A stretch of 28,084 bases of DNA, from the NCBI GenBank assembly GCA_030616165.1, contig JAUWXV010000022.1, positions 1 to 28,084 on the forward strand. Reading direction: 5' to 3'. Below the pieces are notes generated by a model. It saw only the letters and a program-made list of their open reading frames with translations, had not been told where the DNA came from and ran no database searches. A program made the position numbers and the translations under genes. The stretch comes from a bacterium. Lineage in GTDB: Bacteria > SM23-31 > JAUVVT01. This document shows positions 4,464 through 13,774 of this stretch, piece after piece (within the stretch, counting starts at the first letter, position 1; each line of letters starts with the position of its first letter).

Positions 4464-4488
4464 GTAGGGGCGACCCGCCGGGTCGCCC
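4464..4488 (+). repeat. GTAGGGGC palindrome
   Basis: GTAGGGGCGACCCG, C, CGGGTCGCCC: the 10-base arms GGGCGACCCG/CGGGTCGCCC are exact reverse complements. This is the cleanest intergenic copy of a family also seen at 7774, 10841 and 13748 and, inside a gene, at 11294 and 11918. Confidence 0.8.
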
Positions 4489-7773: not shown

Positions 7774-7798
7774 GTAGGGGCGGTTCGTGAACCGCCCT
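7774..7798 (+). repeat. GTAGGGGC palindrome
   Basis: GTAGGGGCGGTTC, GT, GAACCGCCCT: nine-base complementary arms GGGCGGTTC/GAACCGCCC. Same family as the copies at 4464 and 13748. Confidence 0.75.
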
Positions 7799-8022
7799 TA
7801 CCAGTTCTTTTGTGAATTAAGAAATCCAATATATTTATAAATAATATTATATTTAAAAATATATAAATTAATATTAAAAATGTCAAGAAGATGAGCCGAT
7901 AAAAAAGTATTTGACTTTTCTTATATATTAAAATAAATTAAATAAAAATAAAATACTTATCAATAGATAATGAAAAATTAAACAATTTTTTATATTTCAA
8001 TAAGAAGTTTTTAAAACATATA

Positions 8023-10525: not shown

Positions 10526-10999
10526 TAACTGTTCTTCGATAAATTCCAAAAATTTAAGAATAATTCGAAATTTCTTTATTCCTCTTTTAAAGGTATAAAA
10601 TATCGAAGGTTAAGTAGAATGTTTAATGAAAAATAAAAAGGGGAAATTCTTGATATGGGAGTTATCTGGTTTTCAGGTTAAAAGGAACAAAATTAAGTTT
10701 TTAATATTGCATATCTAATTTATTTTTAATACATTTAAAAATACATTTAATGTTCTAAAAGACAATCCTTCGAGTCTGGTTTTTCCCTCTTCCATATTGA
10801 CAGCATTTCGTGATGAATAATCATATTTCTATTGAGCGGCGTAGGGGCGAAGCATTCAACTTAAGAGTTTTTGAAAAATTTACAATATAGACCAAAAAAT
10901 GCTTCGCCCCTACTTAAATCTAATTTGCTAATATATTATTAACAATCCATTAAAATGCGATTTAGATAAAGAAAATCTAAAAAATTGGAGAGAAAATAC
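10526..10999. other. Intergenic region with a large inverted-repeat element
   Basis: This holds the 73-base GTAGGGGC inverted-repeat element at 10841-10913 and the ribosome binding site of the kinase gene. The rest is AT-rich with no gene or clear promoter that I can support. Confidence 0.55.
10841..10913. repeat. 73-base inverted-repeat element of the GTAGGGGC family
   Basis: GTAGGGGCGAAGCATT (10841-10856) is matched exactly by its reverse complement AATGCTTCGCCCCTAC (10898-10913), 16 perfect base pairs with 41 AT-rich bases between. The outer ends carry the same GTAGGGGC head as the short palindromes, so this looks like a longer form in which both ends keep the head, much like a miniature inverted-repeat element. 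It lies 86 bases ahead of the kinase gene. Confidence 0.75.
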
Positions 11000-13711
11000 A
11001 TGATTGGCGAAACTATTTCTCATTACAAAATCATCGAGAAACTCGGTGAAGGCGGTATGGGAGTGGTTTATAAAGCCCATGACACCAAACTCGACCGTTT
11101 TGTAGCATTGAAGTTCCTCCCAAAAGGAATCGAAGCAGACGAGACTGAAAAAGCTCGATTTATGCAGGAAGCAAGAGCTGCATCTGCATTAAACCATCCC
11201 AATGTCTGCATTATCTATGACATAGCGGAAGAAGACGACCAGCAGTTTATCGTGATGGAGTATGTTGACGGTGTAACTCTGAGGCAAAAAATTGTAGGGG
11301 CGATTCGCGAATCATCCCTGCCGCTAAAAGACGTAATTGAATGGGCTATTCAGATAGGAAGTGCCCTGCAGGCTGCCCACAGCAAAGATATTACACATCG
11401 GGATATTAAGTCTGATAACATTATGATCAACATTTCGAATCAGGTCAAGGTAATGGACTTCGGCTTGGCAAAACTCAAAGGTGCGCTCAAACTGACCAAG
11501 ACATCCAGCACGGTGGGGACGCTTGCATACATGTCCCCGGAACAGATTCAGGGGAAAGAGACCGATGCCCGAGTGGATATTTTTTCGTTTGGTGTAGTAT
11601 TCTATGAAATGCTGACCGCTCATCTGCCGTTTAAGGCAGAATATGAATCCGCCCTGATGTATTCGATACTTAATACTGAACCGGAGCCGGTTACGAAATA
11701 CCGACCAGAACTCCCATCGGGATTTTTATTTCTGCTTGACAAGGCACTTGAAAAAGAACCTGATGAACGTTATCAATCGATTAATGAAATGCTTGTCGAT
11801 TTACGCAGGTTAAAGCGAGATACATCAAGGGTCTCCAGAAAAGCCGTCGTGGAAATGCACCCGGCAGAGCCGTCAGAGCAACCAGCCGTTACTGCTGCGT
11901 TGCGCCCTAAAAAATTTGTAGGGGCAATCGGCCGATTGCCCTTATTCATCAGTGCTTCGGCACTTGTTATTCTCTTAGTGGTTGTGGGCTACCTTCTCTG
12001 GCGTGGAGAAGAAGTCCCTACAGTATCAACTTCAGTTCTGCGACTCACTAATGCCACACGTATCGCCACTTCCCTTGCTTTGGAAGGTTCCCCGACGTGG
12101 TCACCAGATGGCGGACGACTTGCATATCAATCAAATCAGAGCGGTAACATGGATATCTGGGTAACACAGTTGGGAGTGGGAAGCCCTGTAAACCTGACTG
12201 CCGACTATACTGGCTCCGATAGGTCTCCCAGATGGTCTCCTGATGGAAGTCAGATTGCCTTCCGATCAGATAGGGATGGTGGTGGGTGCTTCGTAATGCA
12301 AGCGATAGGGGGCACACCTTATAAAGTAAAGGCTGGCTCTGTAAGTTATCCCTGCTGGTCACCGGATGGACAGGAAATCGCCTATAGGGTGAGGGACACG
12401 GATTCCGCTGCCTACTTTGTTGAAATTGTTTCCCTGCAGGGTGGCACCCCACGACGCTTACAGTTGCAGGTTAGAGAGAACGAAGGTCCCATGCATTTGA
12501 GTTGGTCTCCCGACGGGCGTTACTTTGCTTATGTTTCTACCCGTGGTGCTTGGTTGTTTACGCTCACTTCACAGTTATGGCTACTGCGGGTAGCGGATGA
12601 AGAGTGTTTTCCGGTTACCGATGGGGAGATGAAGGACTGGCAAATGACCTGGTCTCGGAATGGGAGCACCCTCTACTTTGTTTCAAATCGTGGAGGGCTT
12701 TTTGACCTCTGGCAGCAGAGTCTAAGTGACGACGGTAAACCGGTTGGTTCTCCACAGCAGGTGACAACCGGGCAAGATATCAAAAATGCAAAGTTATCAC
12801 CCGATGGGACCAAACTGGCGTATGTGAAGGGTCCTTTTGCGGGTTTTGTGGCGAATATGTGGCGTGTGTCTATCCTTGATGACCGTCCTGCCACGTGGGC
12901 AGACGCACAGCAGCTAACTTTCGAGCAGGCGAACGTTCAGGCTGTTGATGTGTCTCCAGATGGGAAGCAGTTAGTCTTCCATTCGAATATCGATGGAATA
13001 ATCCACATCTGGAAGATGCCGGTCGAAGGTGGTGAGATTCAGCGGGTAACAATTAATCCAATGGAAGAACATATACCCAGATGGTCTCCTGACGGTAGAG
13101 AAATCGCCTTTCACTCCCTACCGGGTTTGGGGAACTCGGACATCTGGGTTGTGCCGGTGGGTGGTGGTCAAGCAAGCCGGGTGACACATCATGAGGCAAG
13201 AGACCAGAGGCTTGCGTGGTCGCCTAATGGCAGGGAGATTACGTTTGTTTCTAATCGTAGCGGAAACGACGACATCTGGATAATCCCTGCTCAGGGCGGT
13301 GAAGCCCGGCAGGTGACGGTTCACCCTGCAATGGACACGAGTCCCGATTGGTCGCCGGATGGTAAATGGATTCTCTTTACGTCTAATCGGACGGGATATC
13401 CGCAACTCTGGAGAGTACCGCCAGCCGGTGGGCGTCCCGAGCCCCTGACTGAGGAAATCTTCGGTCAATTTGGTTGGGGTATCTATTCGCTTAATGGAAA
13501 GAATGTCTATTTCAAAGCAGAGCGAGAGGGGGCACGGAACTTCTGGGAGGTTCCCGCTGAGGGCGGTGCCGAGCGTCAACTGACAGATTTTGCAGGGAAG
13601 TATGGCAGACTTTCAAGTGAATGTCATGCAACAGATGGAAAATATATCTATTTCACGTGGAGAGAGGATATATCAGACATCTGGGTAATGGATGTGGTGG
13701 AGAATGAATAA
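11000..13711 (+). CDS. Transmembrane Ser/Thr protein kinase with PD40/TolB-like propeller
   Basis: The 903-residue protein has an N-terminal PknB-type kinase: glycine loop GEGGMG (16-21), VALK lysine K38, HRDIKSDN (133-140, catalytic D135), DFG (153-155) and MSPEQ (178-182), so it should be active. A linker (about 275-305) leads to one membrane helix (about 313-335), then around ten PD40 blades (repeated WSPDGxxIAFxS), probably periplasmic ligand- or peptide-sensing. ATG 11000 is chosen over a TTG at 10985 because GGAG lies nine bases upstream. Two GTAGGGGC palindromes sit in frame within the gene: codons 99-107 (VGAIRESSL, in the loop after LRQKI) and 307-315 (VGAIGRLPL, just before the membrane helix). 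G+C is about 50 percent by hand count in sample lines against about 35 in neighbours, suggesting transfer. No obvious partner is adjacent. Confidence 0.92.
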   Translation: MIGETISHYKIIEKLGEGGMGVVYKAHDTKLDRFVALKFLPKGIEADETEKARFMQEARAASALNHPNVCIIYDIAEEDDQQFIVMEYVDGVTLRQKIVGAIRESSLPLKDVIEWAIQIGSALQAAHSKDITHRDIKSDNIMINISNQVKVMDFGLAKLKGALKLTKTSSTVGTLAYMSPEQIQGKETDARVDIFSFGVVFYEMLTAHLPFKAEYESALMYSILNTEPEPVTKYRPELPSGFLFLLDKALEKEPDERYQSINEMLVDLRRLKRDTSRVSRKAVVEMHPAEPSEQPAVTAALRPKKFVGAIGRLPLFISASALVILLVVVGYLLWRGEEVPTVSTSVLRLTNATRIATSLALEGSPTWSPDGGRLAYQSNQSGNMDIWVTQLGVGSPVNLTADYTGSDRSPRWSPDGSQIAFRSDRDGGGCFVMQAIGGTPYKVKAGSVSYPCWSPDGQEIAYRVRDTDSAAYFVEIVSLQGGTPRRLQLQVRENEGPMHLSWSPDGRYFAYVSTRGAWLFTLTSQLWLLRVADEECFPVTDGEMKDWQMTWSRNGSTLYFVSNRGGLFDLWQQSLSDDGKPVGSPQQVTTGQDIKNAKLSPDGTKLAYVKGPFAGFVANMWRVSILDDRPATWADAQQLTFEQANVQAVDVSPDGKQLVFHSNIDGIIHIWKMPVEGGEIQRVTINPMEEHIPRWSPDGREIAFHSLPGLGNSDIWVVPVGGGQASRVTHHEARDQRLAWSPNGREITFVSNRSGNDDIWIIPAQGGEARQVTVHPAMDTSPDWSPDGKWILFTSNRTGYPQLWRVPPAGGRPEPLTEEIFGQFGWGIYSLNGKNVYFKAEREGARNFWEVPAEGGAERQLTDFAGKYGRLSSECHATDGKYIYFTWREDISDIWVMDVVENE
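11294..11319 (+). repeat. GTAGGGGC palindrome inside the kinase coding sequence, copy A
   Basis: GTAGGGGCGATTCG, CGAATCATCCCT: an imperfect palindrome (arms GGGCGATTCG/CGAATCATCC, with two mismatches) with the same head as the intergenic copies. It is read in frame as V-G-A-I-R-E-S-S-L at codons 99-107 of the kinase, between the hinge region and helix D, a surface loop in this fold. Confidence 0.7.
11918..11942 (+). repeat. GTAGGGGC palindrome inside the kinase coding sequence, copy B
   Basis: GTAGGGGCAATCGG, CCGATTGCCCT: the core GGGCAATCGG/CCGATTGCCC is a perfect 20-base palindrome. It is read in frame as V-G-A-I-G-R-L-P-L at codons 307-315, directly ahead of the membrane helix. The GTA of the head falls in codon phase 0, exactly as in copy A. 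Confidence 0.75.
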
Positions 13712-13747: not shown

Positions 13748-13774
13748 GTAGGGGCGACTCACTGTGGTCGCCCT
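13748..13774 (+). repeat. GTAGGGGC palindrome
   Basis: GTAGGGGCGAC, TCACTGTG, GTCGCCCTT: seven-base arms GGGCGAC/GTCGCCC around an eight-base loop, 36 bases after the kinase stop. It is followed by TTCCTCTATTTCTTTGG, so it could also act as a weak terminator. Confidence 0.7.

Follow-up and report, generated by a model that had tools for sequence, protein, structure and literature searches.

GTAG-tagged REP elements are defined by the GTAG tag, the hairpin and the association with RAYT (PMC3733652, PMC2817692), and TnpA-REP cleaves single-stranded REPs at a CT dinucleotide in vitro (PMC8266576). Di Nocera et al. (2013, PMC3733652) described intragenic GTAG REPs that lie in frame in functionally known genes, in some cases two to an ORF, and that were suggested to fall in loops or linkers; in two Xanthomonas species, recB was hit at approximately the same site. 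Of the Rickettsia palindromic elements (RPE), RPE-4 and RPE-6 correspond to CGTC-tagged repeats (PMC3733652). A sequence-only reading of the present locus had likened two palindromes within a kinase gene to the Rickettsia elements and knew of no report for this repeat family. As with the RPEs, a palindromic repeat is read in frame in many genes; however, the elements studied here are GTAG-tagged and shorter than RPE-1, and they do not belong to the RPE family. Events of the general kind were published in 2013, even with two GTAG REPs in one ORF (PMC3733652), and a literature search for the octamer GTAGGGGC returned unrelated sequence matches only.

The window, that is, the whole stretch of DNA analyzed, comprises 28,084 nt of the forward strand of contig JAUWXV010000022.1 (GCA_030616165.1), from a source genome of 3.74 Mb in 343 contigs that is 90% complete. 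There are seven exact matches of GTAGGGGC in the window (at 4464, 7774, 10841, 11294, 11918 and 13748, and at 10906 on the minus strand) against 0.11 expected, a count reached in no shuffle, and hairpin folding was found for all six elements. The features are as follows.

4464-4488, plus strand: intergenic GTAG-REP (exact match and hairpin)
7774-7801, plus strand: intergenic GTAG-REP (exact match and hairpin)
10841-10913, plus strand: 73-nt element GTAGGGGCGAAGCATTC...GAATGCTTCGCCCCTAC, upstream of the kinase (exact match and folding)
11000-13711, plus strand: host gene of 903 aa with a PknB-like Ser/Thr kinase domain, a transmembrane helix and a PD40/TolB-like propeller (domain search)
11294-11321, plus strand: in-gene GTAG-REP 1, GTAGGGGCGATTCGCGAATCATCCCTGC, codons 99-107, VGAIRESSL (hairpin, alignment, structure model)
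11918-11945, plus strand: in-gene GTAG-REP 2, GTAGGGGCAATCGGCCGATTGCCCTTAT, codons 307-315, VGAIGRLPL (hairpin, alignment)
13748-13773, plus strand: intergenic GTAG-REP, 36 bp 3' of the kinase stop codon (exact match and hairpin)

The palindrome is dispersed at six places, as had been read from the letters alone, but at 10841 it is not a short palindrome; the element there is 73 nt in length and has long ends that match, the minus-strand match at 10906 being its right end. At the far left of the window, a membrane-anchored pentapeptide-repeat-like protein is encoded on the minus strand (348-1538); its coding repeat is a 15-nt tandem array of 37 copies (493-1051), and the remaining open frames in that region are probably shadows.

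The source genome contains about 254 copies of GTAGGGGC, compared with 65 for a reversed-string control; 247 of them were located, and the DNA stretches around these were examined. Most of the located copies head hairpins, with many stem variants (GATTCACGAATC, GAATGGCATTC, AAACGGCCGTTT, TTGATTTATCAA and others); many show no outer-base pairing, and most of these have a stem starting at GGGC. The family is mostly extragenic, with 27 of the 247 copies contained in any ORF of at least 120 aa. GTAG is preceded by a pyrimidine (T or C) in 93%, and the 3' arm is followed by T in 71%; thus, there is a CT step at the stem base, which is present in both in-gene copies of the window as well. Furthermore, the in-gene copies are identical to, or resemble, intergenic stem variants, and RAYT/Y1_Tnp transposase genes are present in the genome. 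With a 5' GTAG beside a hairpin, a high and mostly extragenic copy number and a RAYT gene in the same genome, the GTAGGGGC palindromes are GTAG-tagged REP elements, non-autonomous hairpins recognised by RAYT (HUH tyrosine) transposases. Since GTAGGGGCG occurs frequently in several unrelated genomes, the family is not limited to the source lineage.

The ORF of the kinase is open throughout 11000-13711 and contains PF00069 and the PD40 propeller. As the earlier reading stated, both in-gene copies are read in the same codon phase, with GTA GGG GC at codons 99 and 307, in an intact frame, and yield VGAI peptides. Copy 1 encodes V99-L107 (GTA GGG GCG ATT CGC GAA TCA TCC CTG), and its hairpin shows slight decay in one arm; copy 2 encodes V307-L315 (GTA GGG GCA ATC GGC CGA TTG CCC TTA), and its hairpin, GTAGGGGCAATCGGCCGATTGCCC, has a perfect 10-bp stem. 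The tolerant places assigned to them were correct for copy 2, which lies at the membrane edge in the juxtamembrane linker just before the membrane helix, but copy 1 does not directly follow the hinge: in an AlphaFold2 model (mean pLDDT 87), residues 99-107 complete helix alphaD (94-102) and continue into the loop that leads to alphaE (109-127).

At this first site, the interval from Lys 97 to the acidic residue opening alphaE has 9 residues in homologous kinases (e.g. K-INSGPLKIK-E) and, by direct count, 13 in the window kinase. Paralogues C38 (TVGANGQSPFLSV) and C118 (IKERANSHSPLRV) have 13 by direct count and 14 by automatic count. The palindrome is absent from the 9-residue loop of the kinase of genome G005, which is 75% identical to the window kinase, and the REP is likewise absent from the 9-residue loops of the genome's own paralogues C262, C204 and C261 and of most other homologues. 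(A paralogous kinase gene, L067 at 1564-2895 of G000 C204, is interrupted by a single in-frame TAG.) The element thus lies in frame in a real gene and is missing from shorter homologues, but the net length is not that of the element: the gain is approximately 4-5 codons (12-15 nt), compared with the 9 codons (24-28 nt) of the palindrome. Homologues therefore lack the palindrome, as had been predicted, but not exactly its codons, and these loop lengths rule out exact-codon insertion at site 1. With a net gain of 4 codons, about 5 codons were replaced or there was later trimming. Judged from homologues at 60-75% identity, a REP appears to have been inserted into the window kinase.

We consider it highly probable that these observations reflect RAYT-linked insertion or replacement of REPs, which were kept where the kinase loop tolerates added residues. 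RAYT activity would spread GTAG REPs through the genome; by RAYT catalysis, one REP would have replaced part of, or been inserted into, the alphaD-alphaE loop with a net gain of approximately 4 codons, and a second would have entered the juxtamembrane linker. Both would have been kept if additional residues are tolerated at these places and the frame remains open (VGA...PL), the added residues being translated and presumably neutral. The earlier proposal that a mobile palindrome had become coding sequence holds in this outline, with the GTAG-REP identity, the RAYT genes and the absence of the palindrome in G005 and C262, but not in its exact-codon form.

In the DNA stretches around the copies, we scanned ORFs of 120 aa or longer for hairpins with perfect or near-perfect pairing; a few that lie close to the edges of short, doubtful ORFs were left out of the count, and the scan is blind to copies without a GTAGGGGC end that lie far from any intact copy. 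In the genome so sampled, in-gene hairpins were found in kinases and RAYT genes only. The RAYT genes with in-frame GTAG REPs are listed below; all four have their palindromes in the variable stretch that immediately follows the HUH strand.

L275 (C207), ORF 1440-2132
L322 (C108), approximately 2804-2833
L310 (C316)
L292 (C268)

The RAYTs C207 and C316 have two palindromes each in inverted order, an arrangement that resembles a REPIN within the transposase gene, and in the RAYTs C302 and C283 the palindromes are elsewhere in the gene. This genome resembles the REPtron, or RAYT-REP, systems (Nunvar 2010, PMC2817692; PMC8266576) in its RAYT genes, GTAG hairpins and CT step at the stem base, but differs in that several RAYT genes hold REPs inside their own coding sequence. 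A comparison of the C207 RAYT with plasmids gave distant relatives only, and one of the C108 RAYT with PDB gave no match.

The shared phase of the two window copies had been taken as evidence of insertion compatible with coding. However, the G|TAG frame contains a stop, so that a plus-oriented copy has two open frames and a shared phase is close to forced. Among 14 in-gene units, all in related genes and compiled by hand, 12 are in one frame (P approximately 0.0015 if they were independent; one more C316 unit, also in the common frame, is not in this figure), but most of the units share a target site, and thus counting by site, over five sites, leaves a weak signal (0.02-0.15). The orientation, also adduced earlier, is not uniform, since in paralogue C118 and the kinase of genome G001 the tag is on the opposite side.

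At site 1, GTAG REPs with a common codon frame are present in the window kinase, in C38 and C118, in the kinases L090 and L091, and in the kinase of genome G062, which belongs to another family and carries GTAGGGGCACGGCGCGCCATGCC; all of these loops read VGA (or AGA). The loop of L091, from a Calditrichaceae MAG, contains GTAGGGGCGAAGCATTC...GGAATGCTTCGCCC and is longer by 24 codons, and that of the near-identical L090, filed under Deltaproteobacteria, contains a complete 73-nt version and a second palindrome. The coding 73-nt element of L090 and the intergenic one of the window (10841-10913) have the same ends and length, whereas their middles differ. As L090 and L091 are near-identical, one of the two MAG labels may be wrong. 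In a kinase from Ignavibacteriales (L083), the same loop contains a different palindrome, CCCCCCTTACCAAGGGGGG, as coding sequence.

On a tree of the kinase domain built with the site-1 loop removed, four changes are required for the REP label (bootstrap range 4-4; the starred branches force at least three). A single clade of all site-1 REPs, and with it one origin, was rejected (AU p 1e-88), as was a clade of the window kinase, C38 and C118 (p 5.6e-5); C38 and C118 are a supported pair (100/99), and their REP probably derives from one shared event. Since a short conversion tract between the window gene and C38 is possible, three origins are the safe count. Our results show that the same kinase loop was occupied independently at least three separate times, other phyla included.

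This recurrence, with the shared codon frame and the rejected clades, would be expected if the kinase loop were a preferred target of RAYT and REP, hit repeatedly in paralogues and across phyla, and so would the confinement of the non-RAYT in-gene hairpins of the sampled genome to this kinase family, which makes up approximately 0.6% of the coding DNA. However, the loop is generally tolerant of indels, long site-1 loops without a REP being present in several kinases (L057, L064, L079, L080 and L128), and with such non-palindromic insertions in the same loop, general tolerance is a sufficient explanation. Furthermore, a pattern with the tag forward matched site 1 in one of 385 other genomes (G062); the kinases that it matched were the genome's own C38 and C211 and that of G062, the other places being unlike the kinase site in the matched text. 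A right-end pattern, searched in 386 genomes, found among kinases only the genome's own C118, and thus none in the 385 others. We regard a preferred target as unlikely. The wider form of the idea, in which the alphaD-alphaE loop of PknB-like kinases and the post-HUH-strand loop of RAYTs would both be recurrent, preferred GTAG-REP sites with a VGA...SPL frame, and REPs a repeated source of loop sequence across phyla, is doubtful to the same degree.

A somewhat less likely possibility is that the window gene received its REP from a paralogous kinase gene by gene conversion over short tracts. Although the proteins of the window kinase and C38 share approximately 59% identity, the two genes have almost the same left flank, GGCAAAAAA(T/C)TGTAGGGGCGA. 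However, the stems of the two copies differ and that of the window pairs with itself (GATTCGCGAATC versus GAATGGCCAATC), so that only the left half fits, and conversion leaves G062 and L090/L091 unexplained.

Another possibility, which we consider improbable, is that the hairpins were kept for a function, as mRNA structure, in regulation or as a functional loop peptide. At site 2, the G001 kinase, a member of the same family, has AAGGGCGATTAGCCAATCGCCCCTA before the membrane helix with the tag on the opposite side, and its spacing to the helix and to the following VP equals that in the window kinase. Two stem pairs differ between these copies on both arms with pairing kept (A-T/G-C and C-G/T-A), and such covariation would suit a selected structure. 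However, separate REP variants, or template-switch correction of the palindrome, give the same pattern, and other copies (window site 1 and C38) are decaying. A sister relationship between the two kinase domains is rejected (p 4e-50); thus, either the linker was exchanged or site 2 was hit twice. That the octamer is ordinary coding sequence and no repeat has next to no probability: in other genes of the genome, approximately a dozen GTAGGGGC are indeed plain codons with no hairpin, but both window copies have hairpins like the dispersed REP stems, against the chance expectation given above, and the genome-wide family refutes it.

RAYT-linked insertion or replacement in tolerant loops, the reading that we favor, makes the in-gene kinase REPs a known type of event. 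Like the GTAG REPs of Di Nocera et al., they are GTAG-tagged hairpins, in frame in genes and two in one ORF; here, however, the hosts are PknB-like kinases, the same loop was taken on three or more separate occasions, also in other phyla, and both the frame and the net length were assessed. The unusual feature is that one kinase loop was used recurrently. The locus adds a clear case of mobile hairpins supplying new protein sequence, and as one loop of one enzyme family was taken several separate times, it makes target choice versus tolerance testable.
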